DNA of 64,000 nucleotides, taken from the NCBI GenBank assembly GCA_035048495.1, contig CM068540.1, forward strand, positions 7,610,829 to 7,674,828. Reading direction: 5' to 3'. Both the position numbers and the translations under genes were made by a program. Under the pieces are notes generated by a model that worked only from the letters and a program-made list of their open reading frames with translations, had not been told where the DNA came from and ran no database searches. Shown in pieces: positions 40,235 through 59,520 of this stretch. This stretch comes from Euptelea pleiosperma. Taxonomy: Eukaryota; Streptophyta; Magnoliopsida; Ranunculales; Eupteleaceae. Each line of letters opens with the position of its first letter. Within the stretch, counting starts at the first letter, position 1.

Positions 40235-40651
40235 TGAAATTATTTTTCAATTACCACAATATGTCCTAGAAGGGGGTGAATAGGATAATTTAAATTTAAT
40301 GATCACACAATGCGAAAAAAGATCAAACAACCAAAATTATATCCTCTACAGAACAAAGTGAGACGTATATGAGACAAGTTACGAAATAATCACAATCACA
40401 CAAGATAATGATTTATAGTGGTTCGGTGACTTCACACCTACATCTACTTTTTAATATTCCATACTAGTAATATATTATTCTTTCAATCATGCAATACAAT
40501 ATATCCAATTGAACAAGATAATAATCAACCAAGCAATTACTTAGTTTATACTAACGAGAACTTCTTGCCCACCTAAAGAGTTAGCTTAGGCCAATAGAAT
40601 TAGAGGAACAAATTTTCTCACGACACGAGAATCACTTCTCGCGTCACCTAG
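40235..40651 (-). repeat. Copia-2 5' LTR, part 1 of 3
   Basis: The LTR begins TGAAATTATTTTTC and carries CCTAGAAGGGGGTGAATAGG like copia-1. It stops at the CCTAG duplication where the Tat element is inserted and resumes at 59516/59521, and again at 62075. Confidence 0.85.
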
Positions 40652-42589
40652 TGTTGACAGTGAAATGTGGATCATTTCGAAAATCATGACCAAGGGACGC
40701 GAAAACTGACAGTCAGAGTCAAAGTCAACCGCGCGACAGTAGACAAATCAGAGCAGAGGACTTGGATAAGACATTTTACTGGGGATCTAATCATATACGG
40801 TTGTGTAGAAGATGAGAGTACACACCGTATTCAGTCAGAATTAGCACAACTCGTGTGGATTTCAAGAAAATGAAGGCAGCCAATTTTGGGCAGAACCAAC
40901 CCAAATCATCAGGAAGTAACTACATACGATTGTGTAAGACATAGGGATACACAACCGTATGCCATCAGATTTGTCAGATCGGGGCCAGATTTTTGCATAA
41001 AGGGCATGCCTCGTTTATGAGCCAACCATCCACAGATCAGAGAAAGTAAATAGATACGGTTGCATAGAAGGATAGCTACACAACCGTATGGAGTCAGATC
41101 TGGAAGATCTACGGCCGATAGTGAGATAGAGGGGACATGCCATTTTCCTCTAGATGCATGCAAGATCTTAAAAATCTAACTACATTCGGTTGTGTAGGAC
41201 ATCTTCTTACATAACCGTATGCCTTCACTTTCCTAGAAATACACCTCATCTCATCAGAAAAGCACCCATGCCCTTTTCCTCGAGATCCGCATAGTGGAGA
41301 AGAAAACTAGTCACATACGGTTGTATAGAACCTCCTCCTACACAACCATATGCAATTACATTTCCAAAAATACCCCTCATGTTCCCAGAAGAGCACCCAT
41401 GTCCTTTTCCTTGAGATTCGTGCATGGGATCCAAAAAATAGCCATATACGATTGTGTAGAACCTCCTCCTACACAACCATATGTAGTTACATTTGCAGGA
41501 AGTCTTCTCATTTTTTCAGAGAAGCCACATGCCATTTTCCTCAAAATGCGTGCAGAATCTGCCAGAATTGGTGGCATATGATTATGTAGCACTATTGACT
41601 ACATAATTGTATGTGATTACTTTTTTAAAGATTGTTTGTATTTATTCATTAATTCGAGCATTTTTCCTTATAAAGGTGAGCTGCAACATGTGCAGACCCC
41701 TTCCCAAAACTCTATAAATAGAGGACTCTAGGGGATAGAAAAAGGGATTTGATCATTTATTTTTCAATCAGGCTTATACTCTGTCGAAATTCATCAAGAA
41801 TTTGGCTCGGTGTTTTCCTTAAATTTGTGAGTAATTTACCGAAGAAATACAAAATCTCAAGTTTAGATTTCTTGAGCAATCTTGTCTAAAAGGTAATCCC
41901 CATTGCACTGCACCGGATAGATGTTCATCTTCTAAGGACTTTATGCCGGGTTACCACACGATTGATGATTGAACGACACATTTCCATCTCAAGGGGAAGG
42001 GATTGAGGCATAAGAACAAGCCTATCCTTTATAGGTCCGATGGATCCCATTCAGGGTAGAAAAATAGCTAAGAATCCGGCATATAAGTGTTATTGAGACC
42101 GGGAGATCCTCTCCCTTGATTAAATAATATAAAAAGATAAAGAACGGATATTTGGAACCAAGGATTAATTAAAGAACTAATTGAATCACACCCCTTTTGA
42201 GATCTTGAAGAGAGGATGAATCTAGTTAGCAGTATTGAAACCGTTGGATGCACTTTGGACATTCTCTAATTCCTCAGTTTGACAGACTGAGGGACCCATT
42301 CAGCAAGATTAAATTAAGATTACCTTCTTGGGGAATGATGAATTGCAAGCGCCATAAATTTAACCAGCCTCTCGCTAATAATTGAATGGACTAATAAAGA
42401 CTACCCATACACCGAGGACCTCAGAAATGACACCCGATAATGGGAAGACCATTCCCCCCAACACACGACTGATTTAGATTCCAGGAGAACGAACACCTAT
42501 TGTCACATCAATCCCTGAAACTATAGCCACACAACAACACACACAACATCACCGTTCCTAGTTCAGTCGCAACCAAAATGCCCCCAACA
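40652..42589 (+). repeat. Tat element 5' LTR
   Basis: 1938 bp, starting TGTTGACAGTG and ending CCCCCAACA. TATA box CTATAAATAG at about 41712-41721, so U3 is about 1.06 kb. U3 is filled by a seven-unit repeat of about 131 bp, each unit with a hairpin (40792-41613). R/U5 follows. Confidence 0.93.
40792..41613. repeat. Seven 131-bp hairpin modules in 5' LTR
   Basis: Inverted pairs of the form CATACGGTTGTGTAG / CTACACAACCGTATG, about 39 bases each with a 9-10 base loop, begin at 40792, 40923, 41052, 41183, 41314, 41445 and 41575. The intervals are 129-131 bases. Sequence between them is also repeated (for example CATGCCATTTTCCTCGA), so the whole is a degenerate tandem array. Confidence 0.9.
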
Positions 42590-42592
42590 ATA

Positions 42593-42608
42593 TGGCACCG
42601 CCGCTGGG
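42593..42608 (+). other. Tat primer binding site (tRNA-Asp-like)
   Basis: TGGCACCGCCGCTGGG, three bases after the LTR, matches the usual gypsy TGGCGCCGTCGCCGGG complement of tRNA-Asp with three changes. Confidence 0.65.
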
Positions 42609-43510
42609 TCTGTGCCCCTTGTTCTTTACTTCAATCCCTTCGACCAAGGGACGGGGCGCTTTTTGCACCGATTTTTGATGAACGGATTCTTGAATAATGT
42701 TATGTCTGACGTGTATACATCATTTAATCTAGCGAACGATTAATGCATTCCATTTTTCCCACTATAAAGACGCATTTTCATTAATTTGACATATCCATGT
42801 CACATATCCCATAATCTATTATACAAGAAGCATGTGAATTAAGGTTGCTTGAAAACTAATAATGAAATAATCAATTAAATCAGCGACGGTAAGAAAATGC
42901 GAATCCACGTGGGATCTAGTACCCGCGGGACTCGTGTTTCTTTACCCTCCGAACCTGCTCAATTGTAACATTGCCCCGACATCCAAAAGGGTTAACATTG
43001 GATAGAGGGGATTAATTGTATCAATAAGAGGTTCTTTAAACCTCCATTAATCATCTCTTTTTCATTGTTGTTTTAAAATCGGATTTCATGTTTATTTCGC
43101 TCCTTTTAGTGAGGTAACGTAACCCCATGTGTTAAATTCTGAAAGGGCTTTTATTTTCATAAAGGAATGGTTTTAATATTTTGTAATAAACTAATCTCTT
43201 TGAAAATATTTTGCCACAAAAGTTGCTATGTTTTAAATAAATAAAAAGAGGTGAATTTTACTCCTGTTTAAAAAATATAGGCTTAAAGCCATTCCAAGAT
43301 GGAAGTTTTTTCCTATATCTATACCTCAATGTTTTGAAAAATGGCCCTTTGGGTAACGTACACATGGGGGCTGCACTATTTCACGTCTTTTTTCGCCCTT
43401 ACGCTCTGTTCTTCAAAATACCTCTAAGATCAGACATTTTCTTAAAACATGTATAATCTACCCTATTAAAGGCTTTCTTTTCTTTCATGAATTTGTGGAC
43501 TTAAGGCACA
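42609..43510 (+). other. Tat leader, non-coding
   Basis: AT-rich untranslated leader between primer site and gag. No extra ORF1, as found in Ogre elements, can be read. Confidence 0.6.
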
Positions 43511-45599
43511 TGCCTGACCAAGACTGGGTTGGTTTGAGTACCGGGGAAGTCCTCAGAAAGGCAGTAGAACTGCAAGAGCAGGCAATTCTAACTCGTTATA
43601 ATTTCAGGCTTTTGGCTTGTATCGACAGCCTTTTGCGACAGTATCAAGAACTTATGGATTAGGACCCACCAGACCACCAACATACAGAGATGGAACAACT
43701 CCGATAGGAAGTGGGGCGACTTTCTGCTCAGATGGAAAAATCATTAGGGAAAGGACTTATGGAAGGGCCCTCAGTGGAAGAACTGGACTCTCATCGGGTG
43801 GTGAGAGACGAGAATGTAGCCCTCAAGGACCAATTGAGGGACCTCCGTGACCAATTTTGACAAATGAGGGATGAACAAGTTCCCCTGCCCCAGAGAGCCC
43901 AAACTTCAACAGCAGCCCCAGCTAATCGTGAGATTGGACAAGGGAGTGACACCACTATGGATCATACCCAGCTCCGTGAATATGTTTACCATATTCTATA
44001 CTAGAGAGACCTGACTCTGGGGCCTTCCAGCCCTAAGGGTGTCTTTACGCCTAACATCTCTCAGCAGCCGTACCCAGCTGGTTTTATTGTCCCTACTTTT
44101 ACACCATACGATGGGACCACTGATCCCGTAGAGCACTTGGTGCGATACGAGTTTCAGCGCGGAGAGCATTCTATGAACCTGCTGTTAATGGCCAAGATGT
44201 TCCCGGTATCCCTTAAGGGGACAACATTTTCATGGTTTGTAAGCATCACCCCTCACAGTGTATCAGCTGGGAACAGTTGAAGAGAGCATTCCACCAGAAG
44301 TTTCAGGCCCGCAAGAAGATCTTTACTTTGGAAAACCTCCGGAACTGCCAGCAGAATCCCGGTCAGTCATTAACGACCTATCTCGATAATTTTGAGAAGG
44401 AAGCAGGAAAGATAGCGGAAGCTATCAGTGACAGCTCTATCATGGACGCCTTCATTCGAGGCTCCGATTTTATCTTCCAGAAGAACTTGATCCTCTATGG
44501 TGCTCCTTCCTTGTGTGTAATCCATAACAGCATCAGTTTCATCAATCACGATCACAACGTGAGAAACCCGGCTCATTTCATGCATACGGTAGAGAGGGTA
44601 GAGCAGAGACGATCGAAAGTGAACCATTTTGTAGGCCGACAGCTAGGCCGCCCTTTCCCACTAAAATTAAACTTTGACTACAGGAAGACAGAGAGATTTT
44701 TAACTGGCTCATGGCAACCAATCAACTCATCCTCCCCCCTTCAAATTATACAGCCCGACCAGCCAACCACAGGCCCGACGACAGATGGTGTGCCTTCTGT
44801 CACAGCGTCACCCACAATACCCAGAGTTGCTTCAAGCTACAAGACACCATCCATCAGAAGATTTCCACGGGTGCACTACAAGCCCAACCTAGGGAGGGAC
44901 CAACTTAGGGAGTAGGCAATAAACCCCCGAGCCTGGGGCAACGCCCGGATGGCTAGTCACACCTACTTGTGCCCAGACAATTACTGGTTGGGGGACGAGC
45001 GGGACCTTGTCTCTCTTTTTTAGGAGCATGGCCCTCAAAGTTATTTTGCAGGAGCTATCTCGCATGAAAATGTTACAGAAGAGCAATTGTTTAAGACATT
45101 GGTGGTACAGACTAGCATGATTAGGAGATCCTTGGATGATCTTGTGAGTAGGGATTCTGCCACACTCATTGATCCGCCTACAGAGGAGACCGAACAGAGT
45201 AGAACCCCTACGATTCCTACAGAAGGTATACCATACCCACAGTGGGTCGAAAGAGAGAAGAAACACTTGGAACAAATAAACAAGCTATGAGTGCAGGCCG
45301 CAGAGCTCACTCGTGAGAAACCAAAGGCACGTGCCCTGTACGACATAGTGGCACACCAAAAGAAAATCCCTGCCATGATGTCCATCTTCAAGGTCTTAAA
45401 ATTCTCCCCTAGGACGAAGCTGGCCCTCGAGGTGGCTATTGCCGAGGCGGCTTTGGAAAGGGGAGAGCACGAAGTTTTCTTTACTTGTGCCTCGCGACGT
45501 GAGCCTGGGAATGGTCCTACAAGTAATCCCCTGCTCTCCTTAGAGTCGGCTCGCACCACCGTTTCAAAGAGAGGGAAAGAGCCATTTGCCGAAGTTTAG
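43511..45599 (+). pseudogene. Tat gag, broken
   Basis: The first ATG of the frame is 43511 (MPDQDWVGLSTGEVLRKAVE). A Glu/Leu-rich coiled-coil-like N-terminus follows, then the retrotransposon gag domain: PYDGTTDPVEHLVRYEF, KGTTFSWF, WEQLKRAFHQKFQARKK, LTTYLDNFEKEAGKI. A CCHC knuckle CAFCHSVTHNTQSC lies near 44785-44826. In-frame stops appear at about 43658, 43709, 43858 and 44001, and a one-base frameshift lies within 44245-44275. Gag would coat and package the RNA. The part from 44900 to 45599 is the gag-protease linker. Confidence 0.82.
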
Positions 45600-45738
45600 A
45601 CATCAGAGGGAATGAGTGACCCGGGGCTGGTAGGAACATCCTAGACCCCCGACGAAGTCTTTGCCGCTTCTCAATTCTCGCAGTCGATGGGGTATTCTCC
45701 ACCTGCGATAACCTTCACAGACGTAGACATGGTCTGCC

Positions 45739-46437
45739 ATGACAGGGGCCACAATCGCCGATGATGTCATCATGCCCAGGGCTCTTCTGGATATGGGATC
45801 GTTGGTCAACATTATTCCTTTGAACATGCTACCCACGTTGGGCATTTCCATTGACGATGTGGATACCGCCCGACCTATCTACATCCATGGAGTTGGCAGG
45901 GCAGTGCAGAGATCAGTTGGGACGATCCAACTTTGGATTGTCGTGAATGAGCTGGATCATGTCCACCGTTTCGATGTGCTAGATACTACACCTTCATATC
46001 ATCTACGTTTGGGCATGCCATGGATCCATTACTATCACGGAGTCTCGTCCTCCTATCATCAGTGTTTCAAGTATTGGATGGGCGGACAACAGGGGATTAT
46101 CACAGGTCTGGTTCAGCCATTTGAGAGATGGAAGTCTTACTATGTCGATGCTCGTTTCTACAACCTGTCCGATGCGGCTGATAGGCCCATACCACCTTTC
46201 AATGAAGTTGAAGGAAAGAAGATGGTCTTTGTAGCGGAGGAGGGGGTCCCGAAACAGATAGCACGACGACAATACCCGAATGGTAATACAACCATCTCTT
46301 TGTCCAACGTGTCAAATGATGAAGGTGACATACCCATCCACGCAGATGGGATTTGCTTCGTGCCAGCCGACTTCCTCCAGTTTATCAAGGATGACAAGGA
46401 ACCCTCACCCATAGAACCCTTTGTTAACTGGGAGTAA
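45739..46437 (+). pseudogene. Tat aspartic protease
   Basis: A 232-codon open frame. ALLDMGSLVNIIPLNML is the retropepsin active site, where the family has D-S-G or D-G-S-S; here D-M-G-S with Met after the catalytic Asp. It continues with RLGMPWIHYYHGVSSSYHQC, the conserved Tat protease C-terminal block (L-G-R-P-W-I-H). The enzyme cuts the polyprotein. The frame itself is intact but separated from gag by a stop, and the active-site neighbourhood is altered. Confidence 0.8.
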
Positions 46438-47047
46438 CGACAGTTACTTCCTCAGCAAAATGGAATCTTGATTTTCTTTTTGTTGTTATTTTGTCTTTTG
46501 GAGCCTGAGTCATAGACTATCCCTGAGGGTACTTCAGGGTATACGTACCTTGGGGGTAGTTCACCCTCAACTGACCGGAACGCCTCAATTTTTTTTTGTT
46601 TGGCGCTGAGACTTCTTTTTGTTCTTTGTTTGCGTGTTATGAATGAAGATTATTCCATTCCTCTATTTTTCCACTTATTTTGGTCTCAATGTTTCCTTTT
46701 CATGCATGCATTATCATTGTAATAATGACCTAAATACTTTTCTTAAACCATCATAATAGGATGGGGAGGTCTGTGCTCTGTGTTATCTTATCATGATCTC
46801 CTCTTCTTGTAATGGTCTTGGTCAAGGGTTCCTTCATATAACCAATGTCACACTCATCTAGTGGTCCAGTATACTTGGGGGCTAAACGAGCGGATTAGGT
46901 GATATGCACTTACACCCTGACCTTCTTTGGAAGGCATTCAGATCATTTTACTTAAAAAATATTCATCATGTTGGAGTGTATGCATTTGTTATGTATAGCT
47001 ATCATGTTTGTCTATATAATGGCACCATGATAAATGTTTGTTGATTT
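46438..47047 (+). other. Non-coding spacer between protease and RT, possible intron
   Basis: About 600 T-rich bases without coding frame. Ogre/Tat elements are known to carry an intron here. GTAACG at 46434 and TTTTAG at 47058-47063 are candidate splice sites, but as they stand they do not keep the reading phase, so the call remains open. Confidence 0.35.
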
Positions 47048-48619
47048 ATGTTATGCCTTTTAGAAATATTCACTATATCACACGCCAATGCCCCATTCAA
47101 CTGCCTTGTATGGGAATATGATACTGAATTCGTAACTGAGGGGGCTTACATGGTTGAGAATGCAGATCCATCAGATATAGATATCAGCCCAGCTCCGGAT
47201 TGTTTCGAGGAAGGTGTGATAGCAGTGGAAGAAATTTTAAAGGAAATCAATTTGGGCAAGCCTCAGGAGGATCGTAAGGTCTTCATATCAGCATCCTTGG
47301 AAGCTCATGAAGAAATGGACCTGGTAAGTCTTCTATCCGAGTATCGCAATGTTTTTGCATGGAGTTATGAATAGATACCTGGTCTTGCCAAACCTGTGAA
47401 ACAAGCTCATCGAAAATTCAGGGCCGAGCTAGAGATTCAAATTAAAGTCGAACTCCAGAAACTCATTGAAGCTGGTTTTATTTGCCCTATTCAGTGGTCC
47501 GAGTGGTTAGCCAACGTGGTACCAGTCAAGAAGAAGAATGGATGGATTAGAGTTTGTGTAGATTTTTTAGACTTGAACAGCAATTGCCCTAAAGATGATT
47601 TTCTCCTACCCAATATGATATCCTGATTGACAACACGTCCTACTATCAGATGTTCAATTTTATGGATGGTTACAGTGGATACAACCAGATCAAGATGGCC
47701 ACGACAGATGAGATCCATACTAGTTTTTATTCCCCGGTTAGTAGCTTTTGCTTCACAGTTATGCACTTTGGCTTGAAGAACGTAGGGACCACCTACTAGA
47801 GAGCTATGATTAAGATTTTTGGCGAGATGATGCACTATGAGGTGGAGGATTATGTCGACGATGTGGTCGTACGATCCCCCACAAGAGAGAGTCATTGTGA
47901 CGCCCTAAGGAAGGTTTTCGATCGATGTAGGCAGACAAATTTGAAGATGAACCCATTGAAGTACGCATTTGGGGTTAGTTCTGATAAGTTCTTGGGATTT
48001 CTGATTCGACATCGGGGAATTGAGATCGACCCATCCAAATTAGACGCAATACAAAGTCTACCCCGTCCCAAAACTCTTAAACAAATCAAGAATATGTTGG
48101 GACGTTTGTCCTACATTCATCGATTTATACCCAATCTCTCGCAAAGATGCTTCCTCTCACAAGGTTATTGAAGAAAGATGCCACATTTATTTGGTTTGAG
48201 GAGTGCGAGAAGGCTTTCTTGAAAATTAAACAAGAGTTACTCAAACCCCCGACTCTAATGGCGTCTATTCATGGACAATCCTTGATTCTTAATCTCTCCA
48301 CCTTGGAGAATGCTATGGTTGTTCTATTGGTCCAAGAGGATGAAGAGGGTAAGAAAAACCTATTTATTATCTTAGTCAGGTTTTATTACCAGTTGAGACT
48401 CATTATCCTAAGATCGAGCGGGCTTGTTTAGCCTTGGTTTTTGCATCTCAAAAGCTCCGCCACTACATGTTGGCTCATTCAGTTACACTAATGTGTGGGA
48501 GTGACCCTATAAAGTACCTCTTGAGTCAGCCAGTTCTCTCAGGCCATTTAGCCAGATGGTCATTGATGTTAAGTGAATTTGAGATCACATGTAAGATGCA
48601 GAGGTCGATTAAGGGATAA
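47048..48619 (+). pseudogene. Tat reverse transcriptase and RNase H
   Basis: Pol N-terminus ending YRNVFAWSYE, then RT: ELQKLIEAGFICPIQWSEWL, VPVKKKNGWIRVCVDFLDLN, FMDGYSGYNQIKM, and the catalytic VEDYVDDVVV at about 47850. RNase H follows: PLTRLLKKDATFIWFEECEK, VFASQKLRHYML, KYLLSQPVLSGHLARWSLML. The enzyme makes cDNA from the RNA. Stops at 47372 (TAG), 47797 (TAG) and 48617 (TAA) and frameshifts near 47620, 48140 and 48355 break the frame. Confidence 0.88.
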
Positions 48620-48669
48620 GCTATGACCGACCTGTTAGCTGAGAATCTAGTACAATCATTACCGATGAT

Positions 48670-49068
48670 TTGTCCGATGAGGAAGTTTTCGAAACAATGA
48701 CCACATTGGAGCCTTGGCTCATATTTTTTGATGGGTCTCCTAACAGGTTGGACTCACAGAATGATGGAAGAGCAGGAATTGTGTTCCGAGCCCTCGAAGG
48801 TGTGCTTGTATCCTTTTCCTTCAAATTTGAATTCGAATGTACTAACAACATGGCGGAATACAAGGCCTTGGTGATTGGTTTGGAAATGGTTGTCCTGGCA
48901 GGCATCTGCCACTTACGAATTTTTGGGAATTCTATGTTGGTCATATATCAAGTCACCGACCTATTCAAGGTCAAAGAGGAACATTTGAAGCCTTATCAGC
49001 AGAAAATTTTGAGATTACTCTCATCCTTCGAGACGTTCGACCTAGCACACATCTGTCGGGCAAAAAAT
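48670..49068 (+). pseudogene. Tat archaeal-type second RNase H (aRNH)
   Basis: WLIFFDGSPN and TNNMAEYKALVIGLEM are the first two catalytic blocks of the additional RNase H (D21 and E63 of this frame). The third block, normally G-D-S, reads FGNSML with Asn at residue 87 (codon 48928-48930), so a metal-binding Asp is lost. This domain between RNase H and integrase is diagnostic of the Tat lineage. It shares an open frame with the following integrase. Confidence 0.85.
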
Positions 49069-50497
49069 TCTCATACCGATTCTTTGGCAACCATAACGGC
49101 TAAAATTCAGATGGGACCTAACGAGTATGCCAAAGAAGTCCGCGTGATCAAGAGAGTTCTACCAACATCCTTCTTAGAGGCTGACTGGGAGGAGTCTTAC
49201 CTTATGGTTACTCAAGACGCCTTTGCCGAGTTTCCTAAGGATGAATGGTTTTGGCCCATCTGGGATTGGTTAAAGCATGGTCATGCACCAACCGACCAGG
49301 ACGAATCCAGGAATGTTAAGTGGCAGGCAGTCAGATACGTGGTTATGGGAGACAGGTTATTCAAGCGTAGTTACAGTGGAGTCCTATTGCGCTGTGTCTC
49401 GCATAAAGAAGGGAAGATCATTTTGAGGGAAGTACATGGGGGAGACTATGGTGAACACCAGAGCAAGATTAGACTGGCTCATCAAGTGATACATCTGGGG
49501 TACTATTGGCCCCATTTGCACAAGGACAACATCAACCATGTTCAGAAATGCCGAACTTGCCAGTTACATTCGCATGTCAACCGTTCGCCACCGAGTTATC
49601 TTCATCCTATTAAGTCTTATTGGCCATTCCAAACTTGGGGGTTGGATTTCATTGGAAAAGTCAATCCAGCCGCCAGTAAAAATCATGTCTGGATACTAGT
49701 CGCCACAAAATATTTTACTAAATGGGTCGAAGCTATTCTTTTACGCAGAGCTACTTCAGCCGCCGTCGCCGAGTTTATCACGAGTAAGATTATTTCAAGA
49801 TTTGGAATTCCTCAGAAGATTGTCACAGACCATGGGACTTAGTTCAAGGGAGACGTGGAAGAGTTGCTAAAGAAGTACGGCATATTCCATAGCCAGTCTA
49901 CTACATATTGCTGACTAGGAAACGGACAGGTGGAAGCCATTAACAGAGTTTTGTTAAAAATTCTCAAGAAGACAGTTAATATGTGTCAACGAGATTGGCA
50001 CAAGAAGTTAGTAATGATTTGTGGGCTTACCCTACCACTGCACGTACCTCTACTGGCGAAACTCCCTTCTCTCTTGTTTATGGCACTGAGGCTGTTGCCC
50101 CCATTGAAATTCGAATTCCCACTCCCCGCATGGAATCTGCCGCAGTCTTAGATTATCGTGAAGTTGAGTATGCTTTCTCAGGCATTTTGACCTATTAGCC
50201 GTGGATGAACACCGCCTCCATGCAAAGAAGAATTTGGATGCTTATGTTTATAGAATGACCAGGGCATATGACAAGAAGGTTAAGTTCAGAGCACTAAGGG
50301 TAGGTGACATTGTTATGAAGGTAGCTGATCATGTGCGGACATCGACTACGCACACCAAGTTTACACCAAATTTTGAGAAAGAATTATACATCATCACCCA
50401 AGCCTTTGATTCCGTTTATTATCGCGTCGTGACTTCCGACGGTTTTGAGTTAGAAGCTTCGATCAATGGCAAATGGTTGAAGAAATATTATTGTTAG
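49069..50497 (+). pseudogene. Tat integrase
   Basis: HHCC zinc-binding region VHGGDYGEHQSKIRLAHQVI to CRTCQ, then the rve core: WGLDFIGKVNPAA (first Asp), KIVTDHGT (second Asp), GNGQVEAINR (Glu). The C-terminal domain continues at ETPFSLVYGTEAVAPIEI and KVKFRALRVGDIV to KWLKKYYC. No chromodomain. Stops TAG at 49840 and TGA at 49912 and later frameshifts inactivate it. Integrase inserts the cDNA and leaves a 5-bp duplication, as seen. Confidence 0.87.
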
Positions 50498-50742
50498 AAT
50501 AGAATGGGCATTGGCTTTTCTCTGATATGGATGTGACATCTATTTCTGTGTGTGATTACATTTAAGTCCTTTCTGAAGCGTTGGTTGTTGAGATACTTGT
50601 TTGCCTATTTATGGATTTTCTGTTGCATATGTTTGGAAGTATACCTTTGTGTGAATGATTATGAAAATACATTTTATTCTTCAGAATTGTCATAATTAGA
50701 GTGTTTTGAATTATCATTTTCATGCGTCTGCTTTCTCCCGTA

Positions 50743-51065
50743 CCCACCTTTAGAAACAAATTCGATGGCGTTTCCCCACCTTGTAAAATAACTTCAAGGG
50801 CGTCTCCCCCAACTTTAGAAACAAATTCGAGGGCGTCTCTCCACCTTTAGAAATAAATTCGAGGGCATTTCCCCACCTTGTAAAATAACTTCAAGGGCGT
50901 CTCTCCACCTTTAGAAACAAATTCGAGGGCGTTTCCCCACCTTGTAAAATAACTTCGAGGGCGTCTCCCCATCTTTAGAAACAAATTCGATGGCGTCTTC
51001 CCACCTTTAGAAACAAATTCAAGGGCGTTTCCCCACCTTTAGAAATAAATTCGAGGGCGTCTCCC
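50743..51065 (+). repeat. 32-bp tandem repeat block after pol
   Basis: About ten copies of a 31-33-base unit, consensus around CACCTTTAGAAACAAATTCG then AGGGCGTCTCCC, alternating with a variant containing TTGTAAAATAACTTC. It lies in the 3' region between pol and the LTR, a place known in Tat/Ogre elements for fast-changing tandem repeats that can seed satellites. Confidence 0.9.
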
Positions 51066-51349
51066 CACTTTGAACTTGCCGATATTTGAATGTGTTTGTA
51101 TAGTTTGAATCAAATGTTGTTCGAATATGTTTACATTATTTACATGGACTGGTATTTGCATGTGCTTGGTACAATCAAATACAAAGAAGATTGTGATCAA
51201 AAGATTATTGAATATTTCATTCCATTTTGAAAGCTTTTCATGTATGTTACTAATCAGGGTCAACCTTTGACAAAAAACATAAAGGCTAGACATTACAATT
51301 GTTATCTTGCAGATGTACATGTATGAAAAACATAAAGTAGTAGGACAAG

Positions 51350-54300
51350 TTAAAAGCCTGCGGCTCGAAAGATCTCTTTCACTAGTTGCTTCCTTACGTC
51401 CACCTTTGGACATTCAAGGCTGATCCTCTTGGAGATTTTCGTCATGACTCTTGCTCTTTCATTGGCAGACGACCTGAGCCTACTCAGCTTCTGTTTCGCC
51501 CCGGCCAATTCATTCTTTGCTTGCCCCAATCCAGTTAAGTCGGCATGCAGGGCACTGAGCGTCTCTTTGGCTTTGGCTAATGCCTCTTCCAGGCGGGTTA
51601 CTTTCGAATGGGCTTCTTTGTAGGCAAACCGGGTCACCTTGAGTTGTATGTCTAGGGAGGCCTCCGAAGATATTTTTTTCTCTGTCTTTGATATCTCGGA
51701 GAGCTCCTCTTCTTGCTTCCGACCTTGGACGAGCCCCTTCACTTCGAGGTCAATGGTATCCTACTCTATCTTCCGGTAGTTGAAGCCAAAGTCAATGATC
51801 GGCTTCAATAAGCTCAAATTCAAGCCCGTCTACTCAAGATCAACCAAGGCCCCCCTCATACGGTGGAGTTCGTATACATCACACTCGGTAATACCAGCTA
51901 CTTGCTGGAACAGCCGGATGTAGTTTTAATATATTCAAGAACATCACCACGGAGTCTAAGGGTCCGTCATCCATCACCCGTGGCACAGGGGCCATCAAGG
52001 AGCAGAAGTGGGAAAATGCCTCATACACTAGTACTAAATCTTCTCTGTTCGTAGGCGGCAGCGGCTCGGATCGCACTCCAATGGAATGTCCTTCTTTTGG
52101 GTCACTTATGAGAGCATCCGACAATAGTCCTTACTCCATCAAATGTCACACACTTGCCAGAGTTTGAACCAAAGGGTGTCCCATACCGATGAGGAAGCTC
52201 TCCATCTAAAGATGGTCTGGATTTCCCTACAGTGAGAGGATCACCATCTTATCCCGATATAGGGGGATTTCCCCTTCTTCTAAGCTCATGGGGACTAGTC
52301 GCGTCGGGAACCTCTCTTCCCCGACCTTTTGGAATACACGCGTTGCTATAGGCATGTCTTCAATCCCCCCTGCTCTCATTCCACCAATGGACAGATGTGG
52401 AATGGATCATGCAACGGATGCTACCAGTGTATCCCTCTCCTCTACCACTGCCTTGCCCTTGATCTGCATTTTTTGTCCTTCTTCTGCCTAGTGTGCCGCC
52501 ATGGCCAGCTCCATATCAGCGTCTAGTTTAGTGGGGTTTTCGATAAATTTCTTACTGCAATTGATTAGTAACAAGCCGAATACGAGTTACCTCCGGCGAA
52601 TAGGGCCTCTACTCCAGACTGGGTCAGGACGTCGATTCTCCCAAGTGATTACAGGCCTAATGTGGTTGGGATTTCTTCCTGTGCTGGCGGCCCCTCTATT
52701 GTAGGCATCGCCTCCTCTTGGGCATCTTTAGGTAGAGGACTAGCCGCTTTCCCTCCTTCACATGTTCATTACACATGTTTACCACCAAAAGTCAATACCC
52801 AATAATGAATTTTTACCCAAGTCTTACTCAAATTTCAACACATCTATATCTACTCCTACCTATTCTCATGAAACCCTCTCCATTGAGTTCCAACAAGTCA
52901 AATACCGCCTGCCAGTCCTTGTCCAAAAGGGCTTCTGCTCCCTCCATGTGTACCTCTTGTATGGTTGGCTGGCTCGACACCGCTTTTGCTCCTGCATATG
53001 AATTTTGGTTAGCATGAAGGGACGGTTGTGAAAAATGACCATATTGATGCATCGATTATGATTTAAGTGATTTTCTTTACCTGTGATGATGACGTTCGGT
53101 ATTGCTGGGTCCGCGATGTCTGGCTCACGGATTGGTTCAGTTCTTATTGGGGAATCTGATTCATCCCCTGAACACTCTGGCTTTGATTTTACTTGATGCG
53201 TGGGTCTCTTGACCTCGATTTTCTTGATCTTCTTGGCTGGCCTTGTAGCCTTCCCCTTCTTAGGCTGGGGTAGGTCCGGCCTTAACAGATGAGCAGGTGC
53301 ATCAACCCCGAAGACTTGAATGAACGCATCCTCGGTGGCTATCAACTTTTCCCCAAATCCCGACTACGCTGGGCCCCTTTTTCGATTTCAGGCGGTGCTA
53401 TTGGGCTAGTCGTTTTTGCTTTCTTTCCTTGAGCCACCCCAGGAGGCATTTTACCAGGGTGAGACAAGCGAGCCTCCCAAGATTTCTGTTTGGGCTCTCT
53501 TGGGACTTTCATCCTGACCCCGTTTGGTCCCCTATTGCAGTCTAGTTAATCTCCGAGGAGGTGAGGGTACCTCAATCCTCAAAGTTGCTTCTGCTTCTCC
53601 CAGCCCCGGGGCGGTTGCTTATTCTTCTTTCCCTCGGGAGGAGTCCGATCTCCTCTGCAATCGCCTCTCTCTTACTGATTCGCTGGTGGAGCCCTCACCT
53701 TCTACCCTCAATAAGGGATCTTGCCCAAAAATAGCGCCTCTCCCTGTGTGATTCAGCCTCTTCTCCAAGGCGTCGGCTATCTCTTTTATCTCCAATTCGC
53801 CATAGCTCCCCAGACAAAGCCTCGACATCTCCAAATGCCGATATGTAGTCTTCCCTTGCCTAGTGGAGGGCACCACCTTTAACACCTTGGCAGTGCAGAT
53901 ACAGTTGAAGAAATAATGCTCTAGCACCCAATCGTTGCCCACAATGTTTGGCAAGGGATAGGAGATGTCCTGATCAAATCCCAACTGCAGTGCTACTCGG
54001 TGCGGCCTGTATGCGATGGCAACAGCTTCTTTCTCGGGCACTAGTACTTTGCCCCATGACCCTCTACGCATTTCTCGGGTCGGCACAGCAAAGATGTAAG
54101 AAGGACTGATGATCCTGCTATATATCAATACCAGTTCTCTCAGTGTCCCATCAGCTTCATGTACAGCCAACCCCACGATATCAGCCAGCAAGAGTGGCTC
54201 CCCTTGATATAACGACTCGTCATAGGCCCGTGCTCGACAGTGCTTTGCTGTGTTCAAGATATTGAAAATTGTTCCTATACCAAACATGGGTGGGTCTTCG

Positions 54301-55378
54301 TTGGCATACTTCAAGGCCCTCAGAGTCTACTTGGGATCCCGTGTCAGTATGTACGGGGCAATTTATCATAATGCTCATATGCCCATAACTGTAAAAGCCA
54401 GAAGCGCCAAAGAGGTAGATTTCCTTGGAGGGCAATTTCTTCCCTTCCCAGCTAACTGCCCGGTCCTGCAGGGCCTTCTTGTATTGACTCATACCCTGGT
54501 ACAATTGCGTTGTAACGGTCGACGCCCAACATATCTTTCTCCCATGATAGGTTATGGGCGCTACACAGAATGAACCTTCCACGACCGTGGGGGCTGGTGG
54601 TTGTGGACATAGAAAGATGGAGATCAAATAGGCGAGTAGGCCTAAGAATCCTTCTTCAGAGGTTTGGCCCTTAAATGATTCTGACCACCAGTTCACCTAG
54701 GACCTTCTCTCATTGCCCTTATGCACGGCCATTAACCATTTGTTCCTACTCTCTAGCATGTCGAATGACGTTTTCTCATCATCACTGAGTTGAGACACCT
54801 GCACATGGGGTAGCTTGGTACCAACGGGGAGTCGCCCCAGCATCACGTTATCCTCTGTTGTGAAGCCTACCTCACCAAATGCTATGTTGAACATATTTGT
54901 GGTGGGGTTCCATACTTCAATCAATGCCATCAACATCGGTTTGTTTTCAAGGAATCTCGTCGTGGTTATCTGTACAAGTTGGAGTAGCCCCAGGCCTTCC
55001 AAGCGATCCCTGTATTTTATATCTTGTATGTACGGCGTCGCGAACTTCACCCAACTCGCGTGGTATTTATCCACCACTATGCAAAAGTTCTCTTTCGTGG
55101 CACCGTCTCACTCGTGCCTATACAACTTCATTGCCGAGGGGTTATACATCTCCTCCACCATCTTGACCGCTACCTGCATTGGCTACAGAGTGATATATTG
55201 CTCACCGTCTACTGTAATCGATGGCAGACTCATTATCATGTCCCTGGGCTGGTGCTAGGGCATGTCTTTCGGCTTTCGGGATCTCTCTTGGCATTTCTAC
55301 TGGCATCTCAGATGTTTCACTTATAAGCATTGTACCCCCGGCTAGTTCCCTTTTACCAGCTTTTACTTTCGGTGCCAT
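51350..55378 (-). pseudogene. Antisense ORF: plant mobile domain (PMD)-like protein with coiled coil
   Basis: Reading opposite to pol. The likely start is the ATG at 55378 (MAPKVKAGKREL). The 55077-54697 frame reads RLEGLGLLQLVQITT, MALIEVWNPTTNMFNIAFGE and VGFTTEDNVMLGRLPV, matching the PMD pattern (L-x-A-L-x-E-x-W-x-P-x-T-x-x-F and G-E-x-x-x-T-x-x-D-V-x-x-L-x-G-L-P-V). PMD continues at 54696-54220 (WWSESF, AYLISIFLCP, LYQGM) and 54314-53619. A basic low-complexity linker (KKGKATRPAKKIKKIEVKRP, 53345-52866) follows, then a 52124-51879 segment and a C-terminal heptad coiled coil (51742-51350). Several stops and frameshifts divide it. PMD proteins such as MAIN/MAIL1 act in plant gene silencing; the same domain occurs in transposons. 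Confidence 0.7.
54697..55077 (-). pseudogene. PMD core segment of the antisense ORF
   Basis: A 126-codon open stretch holding the most recognisable PMD part, ALIEVWNPTTNMFNIAFGEV. It is listed separately because it carries the assignment. The upstream frame has a TGA and a TAG within 120 bases, so the open stretch does not show the natural start. Confidence 0.72.
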
Positions 55379-56160
55379 TTCCTTTTTGTTTGTCTCTAAC
55401 CTCTATCCGTCAAGCGGTTCAATGTGACTATCCACTCACGCCGCTTTGTGTGTCGTTTCTTCGAATCCCTTCATACATCACAGAAATCAAGTTAGATTTC
55501 ATTTATTTTTTTCTCTCTTCGAACCGTTATACTTAGGATATTCGATCGGTCAACCGTTCCATGAGAATGATGGGGGGGAACCACTCATTTATTAATCTTT
55601 GGGGATTATAAAAAAAAAAAAAAAAAAAAAAAACCCCATTTCGCTTAAATCGTCGATTCTCGATTGTTTTTGTGTGGTTTATCCCCAAAATTAAAGGGAA
55701 TTTCCATTTTCCCCCCTATTATCATCCCCTAGAATCTCATCAAATGTATACCCCTCGTTTGGGAGATCTATCGATGCCCTTGGTTCATTTTTTACACCCT
55801 AACGCCCCAATTTCTTCTTTTCATGGTGCATTCGTGCACACTTCACCAAATCTCCCCAGATTTGGAAGGGAGGGTCATTTTTACCCCCTCTTCCTTTCCC
55901 TAAAATCTTCCGGTCTATCTCCCCCTCATGTGGGACATCCCACCACCTTTGGGTTCGGCCTCTTGGTGCATTTTTTTCGTTTTTGGGTCTTTTTTTGTTA
56001 TTTCTTCCTCTTTTTTTCTCCTATTTCCTTATTTTTTTAATTATCTTTAGCTGAGCCTTGTTGATTAGAGCCTTTGTCTAGGTTTCTCGCAATTTCGACT
56101 GCGCTTTCACGTCTGTAAGCAATAAAAATGAATTTTTATGCAAAACAAATTTTCTAACTC

Positions 56161-56168
56161 CTTATATA
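56161..56168 (-). promoter_or_regulatory. Candidate antisense TATA box 2
   Basis: The minus strand reads GACTATATAAGGAG, a good TATA match, 780 bases before the PMD-like start at 55378 and 480 bases after the end of the other antisense ORF. It could drive the PMD-like transcript with a long leader. Confidence 0.35.
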
Positions 56169-56637
56169 GTCTCTTATTTTTCACTGGACGGTTCCGCCCT
56201 TCGCCTTCAACTATCATTTCTGGCGGCCTCCGGCATCCGTTTGCTGCCCCGTTTGTTTCTATGGCCTGCTATCACACGGTTCTTCATTATTCTGCCCTGG
56301 GATTGCATCACCAATAGGGTTTTTCGCTGATTTCTCTTCACGTGTGCACTACTGGCAGAAGTCCAGATTTTTACCACGGGATTATTTTTCGAACACCGTT
56401 GCTTCCCACCTGTCCTTTACCTCTATGTGACCACGTGGGAACTGACGGCACTATTTTGGACTTTTCTATTGGATTTTACGCTCAATACAAATTTACATGC
56501 TACAGGGACAGTCATTACACACGGTTTTTTTTCATTCCACACTGGGCGCCGAATTACATTTCCTACATTTTGGGCCCCTGCCACTATGCGGGACCCCATA
56601 CATTGGCCTCTGGCCCATAACATTGGTCTATGACCTA

Positions 56638-57399
56638 TAACATCAGGCCCCTCAGTCTCGCCATGGACGGCTCCAAGCTGTTCAGTTCTTCGCGGGTGTC
56701 CTGCACCTCCAACTACTTCTGCTCTACCAGGGTGCCTAATATGCCAGCCGCACCCTCTGTCGAATCTGGTGCCGAGGCCCCTTCAATCTGTTTAATGCAC
56801 TTCTCTGCCTCTCGGAGCTCCTCTTGCAGTGCCGCCAACTTCCCCGTTAGCTTAGCCACCCGTGCTTTGGCCTCTCTTAGCTCCGTTGCCCACGCACTCT
56901 CCTCTACGGCCGCTGCCCACTGTTCTCAAAGCTTGGTCAACGCCGCTTTGTTCTTCTGCAACCCCTCTTGGGCCTTTGCATAGCTTTCCATGAGGTGTTC
57001 ACGGAAGAATCCCACACGGAATCCCGCTATAGTCAGTACTCGCAAGGTGGCGACGATACTTTTAAGATCATCTCCACGTCGCTCAAAGGAGTGCTCGGCC
57101 ACGAGCCTGATGACGCGGAGATACATCTCCCACATCATGTCGATGGCCTCTTCTCCAGATTAACAGGCTTTGCCCACGACTTGATCGTAGGACGGGGCTT
57201 GGGGGTATTTCAGGTTGGCATGACAGTAGGCCATTATGTACTTGGCCTCCTCGATGTGCTCCTCACTCACGTCCTGGACCCTGTCTGGATCCTAAAACCC
57301 GCGACGATAAATTTGCATAAAGGTCATGTCTTGGATGACCATGGATTCCCCCGTGGTTCCTGTTGAACTTGCTGGCCTTTCCTTGAGGACATGTTGCAT
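56638..57399 (-). pseudogene. Second antisense ORF: coiled-coil protein, broken by four stops
   Basis: One minus-strand frame of about 250 codons, start ATG at 57399, interrupted by four stops (about 57294, 57159, 56923, 56719) but no frameshift. Parts: MQHVLKERPASS; SEEHIEEAKYIMAYCHANLK; MMWEMYLRVIRLVAEHSFER; then a long charged heptad coiled coil (LREAKARVAKLTGKLAALQE, LREAEKCIKQIEG). No known enzyme domain. Its layout recalls the C-terminal coiled coil of the PMD-like ORF. A TATA box stands about 65 bases upstream of the start. Confidence 0.65.
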
Positions 57400-57461
57400 A
57401 TCTTTAGCTCGCTTGTGGGGAGGCTCTCTGGGTTGGTATTTTGTTCTGAGCCTTCTTGTGG

Positions 57462-57470
57462 CTATTTATA
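57462..57470 (-). promoter_or_regulatory. Antisense TATA box 1
   Basis: The minus strand reads TTTATAAATAGCC, a canonical plant TATA box, 63 bases upstream of the ATG at 57399 and 113 bases inside the 3' LTR edge. This is the spacing expected of a short-leader promoter for the antisense ORF. It appears separate from the sense LTR promoter, whose box is at 58643. Confidence 0.6.
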
Positions 57471-57570
57471 AACTTCAGTTCCTTCCACATTTCTGATTCA
57501 TTGTATCTGGACCCCTTTTACTCATGTTTTGCTAAACGCACATGGTGTACCACTTGGGCGTGCATCCGGC

Positions 57571-57582
57571 GAGGGGGCTTTA
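57571..57582 (+). other. Tat polypurine tract
   Basis: GAGGGGGCTTTA directly precedes the 3' LTR. Short and G-rich; the normal plus-strand primer place. Confidence 0.6.
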
Positions 57583-59515
57583 TGTTGGCAGTGAAATGTG
57601 GATCGCTTTGAAAATCACGACCAAGGGATGCGAAAACTGACAGTCAAAGTCAACCGCGCGGCAATAGACAAATCAGAGCAGAGGACTTGGATAAGACATT
57701 TTACTAGGGATCTAATCATATACGATTGTGTAGAAGATGAGAGTACACAACCGAATTCAGTCAGAATTAGCACAACTGGTGAGGATTTTAAGAAAATGAA
57801 AACATCTAGTTTTGGGCAAAATTAGCCCAAATCATCAGGAAGTAACTACATACGATTGTGTAAGACATAGGGATACACAACTATATGCCATCAAATTTGT
57901 CAGATCAAGGTCGAATTTTTGCATAAAGGGCATGTCTCGATTTCTGAACCAACCACCCACAGATCAGAGAAAGTGAATAGATACGGTTGTGTAGGAAGGA
58001 TAGCTACACAACCGTATGGAGTCAGATCTAGAAGATCTACGGTCGATAGTGAGATAGAGGGGACATGCCATTTTCCACGAGATGCGTGCAAGATCTTAAA
58101 AATCTAACCACATACGGTTGTATAGGACCTCTTCTTACACAACCGTATGCCCTCACTTTCCTAGAAATACACCTCATCTCATCAGAAAAGCACCCATGCC
58201 CTTTTCCTCGAGATCCGCGTAGTGGAGTAGAAAACTAGTCACATACGGTTGTGTAGGAGGAGGTCCTACACAACCGTATGCAATTATATTTCCAAAAATA
58301 CTCCTCATGTTCACAGAAGAGCACCCATGCCCTTTTCCTCGAGATTCGTGCATGGGATCCAAAAAATAGCCATATACGGTTGTGGAGGACCTCCTCCTAC
58401 ACAATTGTATGTAGTTACATTTGCAGAAAGACTTCTCATTTTTTCAGAAAAGTACACATGCCATTTTCCTCGAAATACGTGCAGAATCTGCCAGAATTGG
58501 TGGCATACGGTTATATAGCACTATTGACTACACAATCATATGTGATTACTTTCTTAAAGATTGTTTATATTTATTCATTAATTCGAGCATTTTTCTTTAT
58601 AAAGATGAGTCTGCAACATGTGCAGACCCCTTCCTAGAACTCTATAAATAAAGGACTCTGGGAACAGAAAAAGAGATCTGATCCTTGATTTTTCAATCAG
58701 GCTTATACTTTGTCGAAATTCATCTAGAATTTGGCATGGTGTTTTCCTTAAATTTATGAGTAATTTACCGAAGAAATACAAAATCTCAAGTTCAGATTTC
58801 CTGAGCAATCTTGTTTAAAAGGTAATCCCCATTGCACTACACCGGATAGATGTTCCTCTTCTAAGGACTCTATGCCGGGTTACCACACGATTGATGATTG
58901 AACGACACATTCCCCGTCTTAAGGGGAAGGGATTGAGGCATAGGAACAAGCCTATCCTTTATGGGTCCGATGGATCCCATTCAGGGTAGGAAAATAGCTA
59001 AGAATCCGGCATATAACTGTTATTGAGACCGGGAGATCCTCTCCCTTGATTAACTAATATAAAAAGATAAAGAACGGATATTTGGAACCGAGGATTAATT
59101 AAAGAACTTTGGACACCCATTTTGAGATCATTTGAAGAGAGGATGAATTCAGTTAGTATATTGAAACCGTTGGATGCACTTTGGACATTCCCTAATCCCT
59201 CAGTGTGACAGACTGAGGGACCCATTCAGCAAGACTAAATTAAGATTACCTTCTTGGGGAATGATGAACTGGAAGCGCCATAAATCAAACCAGCCTCTCG
59301 CTAATAATTGAATGGACTAATAAAGACTACCCATACCCCGAGGACCTCAGAAATGACACCCGATAATGGGAAGACCATTCCCCCCAACACACGACTGCTT
59401 TAGATTCTAGGAGAACGAACACCTATTGTCACATCAATCCCTAAAACTATAGCCACACAACAACACACACAACATCACCATTCCCAGTTCAATCGCAACC
59501 AAAATGCCCCCAACA
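57583..59515 (+). repeat. Tat element 3' LTR
   Basis: 1933 bp, TGTTGGCAGTG...CCCCCAACA, collinear with the 5' LTR except for small indels such as a 6-base gap near 57648. It has a TATA box at 58643-58650 and the same seven hairpin modules at 57717-58542. Confidence 0.93.
57717..58542. repeat. Seven 131-bp hairpin modules in 3' LTR
   Basis: The hairpins begin at about 57717, 57848, 57979, 58110, 58241, 58372 and 58504. Module 5 reads CATACGGTTGTGTAGGAGG and continues into a near-perfect inverted partner ending CTACACAACCGTATG. Same order and spacing as the 5' LTR. Confidence 0.9.
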
Positions 59516-59520
59516 CCTAG

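Follow-up and report, generated by a model that had tools for sequence, protein, structure and literature searches.

The 64,000-nucleotide stretch of the Euptelea pleiosperma genome analysed here (contig CM068540.1, positions 7,610,829-7,674,828; hereafter the window) likely contains an old Ogre/Retand-type copy of a Tat retrotransposon, from a family whose interval between pol and the 3' long terminal repeat (LTR) holds an accessory module antisense to gag-pol. In the window copy this interval carries two decayed minus-strand genes. Unit 1 codes for a plant mobile domain (PMD) protein and unit 2 for a smaller coiled-coil protein with a DUF724-like domain. Judged from their sequences, these are two separate minus-strand coding units with conserved linkage and orientation, and unit 1 contains GT-AG introns on the antisense strand only. 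An earlier note on the window had proposed such a module; it is now placed well beyond chance, and the case for it, made by domain searches, linkage, orientation, constraint and the conservation of promoter sites, is stronger than the note had it. Its predicted parts are as follows:

53081..55378, minus strand: unit 1 exon 1, with a basic N terminus, the plant mobile domain (PF10536 pieces) and a basic linker
52992..53080, minus strand: unit 1 intron 1 (GT-AG), donor and acceptor kept across copies, every frame stop-rich
52860..52991, minus strand: unit 1 exon 2, spliced frame lowest in stops (9/869 codons)
52762..52859, minus strand: unit 1 intron 2, donor GT in 18/20, acceptor degraded in the window copy
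52591..52761, minus strand: unit 1 exon 3, from 4 copies, frame fits when one of the two reference copies is used
52531..52590, minus strand: unit 1 intron 3, 3' boundary approximate (the window copy has a deletion)
51350..52530, minus strand: unit 1 exon 4, coiled coil at its end, 5' boundary approximate, from 3-4 copies
56161..56168, minus strand: TATATAAG box of unit 1, all 8 bases kept in 5/7 aligned copies
56635..57392, minus strand: unit 2, coiled-coil protein with a DUF724-like domain, degraded in the window copy
57462..57470, minus strand: TATAAATAG box of unit 2, exact in 22/24 non-redundant alignable copies

Relatives were searched for in the same genome (613 Mb, 247 contigs). Searches with 77 residues of unit 2 and with 158 residues of the PMD returned 79 rows (87/87 candidates scored) and 118 rows (139/139 scored), respectively. 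Sixty-one unit-2 places were used after 18 of the 79 rows had been dropped (the window itself, 5 distant copies on C2 and 12 short or weak rows). From the 118 PMD rows 57 places were kept, without weak rows, second fragments of a copy already represented and the match of the window itself, and 47 pol places with at least 60% identity were retained out of 112 rows once the window, second fragments and other Tat lineages had been set aside. A same-strand PMD match lies within 15 kb of 40 of the 61 unit-2 places, and for 27 of these the distance is 2.0-2.6 kb; this count considered same-strand PMD matches only, while the survey of pol loci allowed both orientations. A PMD match is in range at 25 of the 47 related pol loci and a unit-2 match at 16; without exception, the nearest match of either kind follows pol downstream and runs in the antisense direction. 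As the units are paired and their orientation is consistent across relatives, the pair belongs to the family and not to the window copy alone.

Of the checks named beforehand in the earlier note, two, relatives in the same genome with the same antisense pair intact and the ratio of nonsynonymous to synonymous substitution rates (dN/dS) between copies, came out in favour of the module: the relatives have open or nearly open frames, and both frames are constrained. The selection test took 30 loci cut per search, not all matches. Unit 2 has a dN/dS of 0.255 (codon bootstrap 0.212-0.315; 29 non-redundant copies of the 30 cut, the window's included) and the PMD exon 0.134 (0.111-0.159; 26 copies of the 30 cut), compared with 0.62-0.75 over six frames of the spacer that follows unit 2 (23 copies). 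Stops make up 0.84% (unit 2) and 0.80% (PMD exon) of codons in the coding frames versus 4.9-8.1% in the other same-strand frames. These values indicate that both units are under purifying selection. The true constraint is probably stronger than the measured averages, since these mix old divergence of the source lineages with neutral decay after insertion. One mirrored frame per unit is also low (ratios 0.383 and 0.238, stops 2.0% and 3.2%), as expected opposite a constrained frame. Indels that are multiples of three account for 4/29 and 10/32 in the two units, and a majority of non-triplet indels is to be expected because the copies have decayed.

Unit 1 runs on the minus strand from an ATG at 55378 to a stop that ends at 51350. 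These coordinates had been given in the earlier note and stand; the continuous frame drawn between them does not, being interrupted by three introns (from 53080, 52859 and 52590) and, in the window copy, additionally broken by stops and frame shifts. The PMD-like core proposed for this unit was recovered by PF10536, which matches three colinear minus-strand pieces (profile positions 1-59, 97-169 and 275-294) at 33.3, 14.0 and 11.4 bits, each singly below the cut-off of 34.9 bits; L070, a relative that has decayed less, exceeds it with 87.7 bits. With the PMD protein as query, nothing in the PDB matched by sequence at E up to 0.1. For TRP28 (PF04195), six pieces of unit 1 from the window and the proteins of L073 and L070 were scanned at E up to 1, and none matched. 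Elsewhere in the genome there are at least 134 TRP28 rows (150/347 candidates scored); among the matches listed, the lists being partial, none stands beside two other Tat lineages. One TRP28 row was seen by eye next to a unit-2/PMD copy at C8:19480104.

Three minus-strand GT-AG introns are visible in the aligned copies of unit 1, and their removal joins open frames. Splice-site and frame counts were made on 30 distinct places (L050/L070, L062/L069 and L063/L072 being the same places). The intron 1 donor is GT in 22/24 and the acceptor AG in 22/23 of these, and the intron 2 donor is GT in 18/20. Across all frames, stops occupy 6.4-12.7% of codons in intron 1 and 6.5-10.3% in intron 2, and in the spliced frame of the fitting exon segments 0.7-1.1% (exon 3 counted with L072 as reference). 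Compared with the two alternative frames, the predicted one has 11/1665 stops versus 58/1666 and 91/1655 in the exon 1 tail, 9/869 versus 15/870 and 36/880 in exon 2, 2/187 versus 8/187 and 12/190 in exon 3 with L072 as reference, 3/283 versus 13/282 and 24/285 at the exon 4 start, and 5/669 versus 33/666 and 57/666 at the exon 4 end. With L072 as reference the counts for exons 1 and 2 are misleading because this copy carries indels. Inspection of the alignment by eye suggests a further intron in the 5' leader of unit 1. About 150 bases of exon 1 (approximately 53245-53400 in the window) are missing from L069 and L072, which suggests the existence of subfamilies.

The predicted product of unit 2 is about 252 amino acids long. 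The earlier note had rightly described a coiled-coil protein; it had placed the start at 57399, seven bases off the ATG at 57392 which is common to the relatives, and had seen a coiled coil only, missing the resemblance to DUF724. In the window the frame of about 250 codons has four in-frame stops and a frame break near its start; it is uninterrupted in L073 and L075. The L073 protein aligns to positions 22-164 of the DUF724 profile (PF05266) with E 1.5e-4 and 22.1 bits. Of 19 aligned members, three of which are C2 relatives, 13 match the profile at E up to 0.1, the best with an E of 3.3e-8. A whole-genome search with this profile found 24 matches (69/69 candidates scored), eight of them above the cut-off; of the 16 below it, 15 are unit-2 copies (11) or C2 relatives (4). 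Since the other coiled-coil genes of this genome gave no match at E up to 0.001, we take the relation between unit 2 and DUF724 to be real but distant. The Pfam scan of the L073 protein found no Agenet/Tudor match, and a PDB sequence search with unit 2 found none at E up to 0.1. The AlphaFold model of unit 2 consists of helices only (mean pLDDT 58.4, pTM 0.28). A protein database search matched neither unit 2 nor the PMD protein run as a control and is uninformative on distribution; as the control failed too, the result suggests that the database used probably did not contain these plant proteins.

Each unit also appears to have a TATA box of its own. Both boxes had been pointed out before, TATAAATAG at 57470-57462 and TATATAAG at 56168-56161, and both proved to be conserved among copies. 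As a measure of conservation, the frequency with which copies agree exactly was taken for every short window of the non-coding flank; for unit 2 the flank tested included about 50 bases of the LTR end. By this measure, each TATA site ranks near the top of the windows in its flank. TATAAATAG and five windows overlapping it are the top 6 of 205 in the unit 2 flank (median 0.50); the 9-mer is exact at 23 of 30 unit-2 loci, the shorter TATAAA is found at one and neither at six. A 16-base window beginning with TATATAAG is exact in 16/19 copies and falls within the best 2 of 1019 in the unit 1 flank (median 0.22).

A number of observations speak against parts of this reading. As to linkage, 21 of the 61 unit-2 places have no same-strand PMD match within 15 kb. 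As to the gene structure of unit 1, the intron 1 donor reads GG in L040 and L043 (2/24 places), the spliced frame of exon 2 is barely better than one alternative (9/869 versus 15/870), and the middle of exon 4 misfits (17/393 stops in the predicted frame versus 13/396 and 21/395). Exon 3 fails with L069 as reference (12/186), because L069 has an indel of its own there, and the evidence for exons 3 and 4 comes from 3-4 copies. The introns do not drift faster than the exons, as between-copy similarity is 0.84 and 0.85 in introns 1 and 2 versus 0.82-0.83 in exons. The 16-base window of unit 1 was picked after the alignment had been seen, and the level of the 6-base TATATA alone is reached by 17/1033 windows. 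For unit 2, the DUF724 cut-off of 38.4 bits is not reached, the best copy scoring 35.8 bits in the genome search; one of the 14 control genomes (Haloferax volcanii) also matched below the cut-off; and hhalign of unit 2 against four host DUF724 proteins returned a weak probability of 7.7.

Unit-2-like loci lie at C2, 15.45-15.68 Mb (L074:2201-3289 on the minus strand, L076, L077, L078 and L079). In three near-identical copies, the C-terminal lobe of a receptor kinase, with PDB matches to BAK1 and CERK1, runs into a full-length unit-2-like protein within one open frame of 363 amino acids; two further copies hold the unit-2-like part without the kinase. The unit-2-like protein is about 48% identical over the searched stretch, and its ratio of nonsynonymous to synonymous polymorphism (pN/pS) is 0.27-0.62. 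The kinase parts of L077 and L074 differ by seven amino-acid-changing and no silent changes. These fusions may have arisen when a host gene captured the accessory gene of the element. The PMD exon, which is antisense, breaks off abruptly at L073 and L075 (C14, 26.2 and 26.44 Mb), where a first exon resembling that of starch synthase adjoins it (PF08323, with E 2.7e-7 in L073; identical by eye in L075). Adjacent PMD matches at C2:3462131-3472718, two of them with long uninterrupted frames (669 and 663 amino acids), are probably host genes.

The element that carries the module includes the following features:

40652..42589, plus strand: 5' LTR, preceded by the target duplication CCTAG at 40647-40651
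44217..49842, plus strand: gag-pol pieces in the Tat order gag, reverse transcriptase, RNase H, RVT_3 (second RNase H), integrase, broken by stops
50710..51126, no strand: 32-bp tandem array, separating pol from the antisense module
57583..59515, plus strand: 3' LTR, followed by the target duplication CCTAG at 59516-59520

The whole element spans 40652-59515 and has CCTAG, a short target duplication as in other Tat LTR elements, on both sides. Its LTRs are 91.98% identical over 1946 aligned positions. Scanning of the nine sense pieces against Pfam at E up to 0.01 gave no match for five of them. The rest include RT_RNaseH at 48353-48619 followed by RVT_3 and then H2C2 and rve within 48643-49842, the rve piece scoring 30.3 bits, below the cut-off of 32.6. 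A second RNase H (aRH) between RNase H and integrase marks Ogre- or Retand-type Tat elements (Neumann 2019, PMC6317226), and since the domain order fits this description, the element is assigned by its sequence to the Tat lineage (Ogre/Retand group) of Ty3-gypsy LTR retrotransposons, as a decayed copy. Each LTR also holds units repeated at 131-nt spacing (window 41067-41497 and 57995-58556).

In the mechanism we envisage, each unit would be transcribed by RNA polymerase II from its own promoter and the introns of unit 1 would be spliced from the antisense RNA. As these introns are readable only in antisense RNA, replication through the sense RNA, where they would go unrecognised, would preserve them. 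The products would be nuclear helpers: from unit 1 a PMD protein whose tail is a coiled coil, and from unit 2 a smaller partner, likewise a coiled coil and DUF724-like. Both units having been kept readable by selection during the spread of the family, both antisense genes probably help the element to persist in its host. Our guess for the last step is that the products could interfere with host silencing of the MAIN/MAIL1 type or tether at chromatin, and so keep the element expressed. We regard this step as possible and offer it tentatively; its inferential nature is another point against the reading. The earlier note had suggested that the module may have countered host silencing or tuned the sense transcript, and a function of this kind remains a reasonable thought because the PMD proteins MAIN and MAIL1 act in silencing, being needed for it (PMC5418596), and because Arabidopsis AIP1, whose DUF724 domain is linked to protein-protein binding, binds the chromatin partners LHP1 and ABAP1 (PMC4634149). 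The most elaborate version seems unlikely to us: a second, opposed gene program of two independently promoted antisense genes, one of them multi-exon, whose PMD and DUF724-like products disarm host PMD silencing as a pair, with host genes reusing unit 2 in their turn, the receptor-kinase fusions on C2 being an example.

The alternative that survives best accepts the units as real antisense genes and makes their products structural or integration helpers, acting for example in nuclear import of the pre-integration complex. It overlaps with the reading proposed here and differs in the last step only. The protein of Grande gene23 is found in the nucleus, and such products have been suggested to act as accessory factors in the manner of retroviral proteins (PMC7264820, PMC11963269); the results fit a helper role as they fit anti-silencing, and we consider a helper role a serious candidate at somewhat under even chances. 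It is improbable that antisense transcription itself is what matters, through double-stranded RNA or a block of the sense transcript, with the reading frames as a by-product: antisense promoters and regulation by double-stranded RNA have been discussed for such elements (PMC7264820) and the good conservation of the TATA sites would fit, but amino-acid constraint (0.134 and 0.255 versus 0.62-0.75) and frames restored by splicing are unexpected for a purely non-coding role. That the two units are passive passengers, either a DNA transposon or a pair of host genes that was captured by the element or became nested in it, is very improbable, for even though PMD is known from MULE transposons and host genes as well (PMC5418596) and the intron-bearing structure looks like a cellular gene, the spacing and orientation of the pair are kept across the family under purifying selection, positions 50400-57600 of the window contain no inverted repeat with a length of at least 20 bases, and PMD-A clades encoded by Gypsy elements have been reported throughout the angiosperms (PMC5418596).

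Several components of the proposed antisense module have precedents. PMD on Gypsy elements is in print (PMC6317226, PMC5418596, PMC9289625); PF10536, the domain shared with unit 1 by PMD-bearing Ogre/Gypsy elements (PMC6317226, PMC5418596), was reported in 57% of Ogre elements (Neumann 2019, PMC6317226). The eORFs of that survey are frames of at least 250 codons, so that introns would have escaped it, and the orientation of the PMD eORF is left unstated in the text consulted. Antisense open reading frames (ORFs) are called frequent in Tat elements, their function being described as unknown (PMC7264820, PMC11963269), and all Retand clusters studied by Vicient 2025 (PMC11963269) have them. The closest parallel is gene23 of maize Grande (Retand lineage), which also lies antisense in the interval from pol to the 3' LTR, has an upstream promoter that drives its transcription and codes for a nuclear product (PMC7264820); unlike gene23, the module described here has two units with two TATA sites and codes for PMD and DUF724-like proteins. 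Retand elements with antisense TRP28 (PF04195) ORFs resemble it in the long region between pol and the 3' LTR, the antisense ORFs and the tandem repeats, and some carry Smc-like domains (PMC11963269). Unit 1 differs from their proteins in lacking the TRP28 match, and the antisense domains named in the Vicient 2025 survey do not include PMD (PMC11963269). ORF2 of PvRetro13 from common bean, likened here by its description, is also antisense between pol and the 3' LTR and has an SMC domain (PMC7264820). Host Agenet/DUF724 proteins such as AIP1 share with unit 2 the aligned part of the DUF724 profile, and the L073 protein differs from them in the missing Agenet/Tudor match and the score below the cut-off.

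The novelty claimed in the earlier note is narrowed by these precedents: PMD on Gypsy elements, antisense ORFs in Tat/Retand elements and a promoter for Grande gene23 are already known. Apparently new are the predicted spliced antisense PMD gene, the putative second promoter and the DUF724-like partner, for none of which, nor for any other spliced antisense accessory gene, a description was found in searches of an open-access library.

Taken together, the conservation of the TATA sites, the introns that can be read only in antisense and the purifying selection make the sequence case for expressed, spliced protein genes. The antisense introns are predicted to survive retrotransposition, so splicing would be a strand-specific signature which can be tested in existing RNA data. 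As PMD is common to unit 1 and MAIN/MAIL1, the pair offers a concrete test of whether plant retrotransposons carry silencing antagonists.

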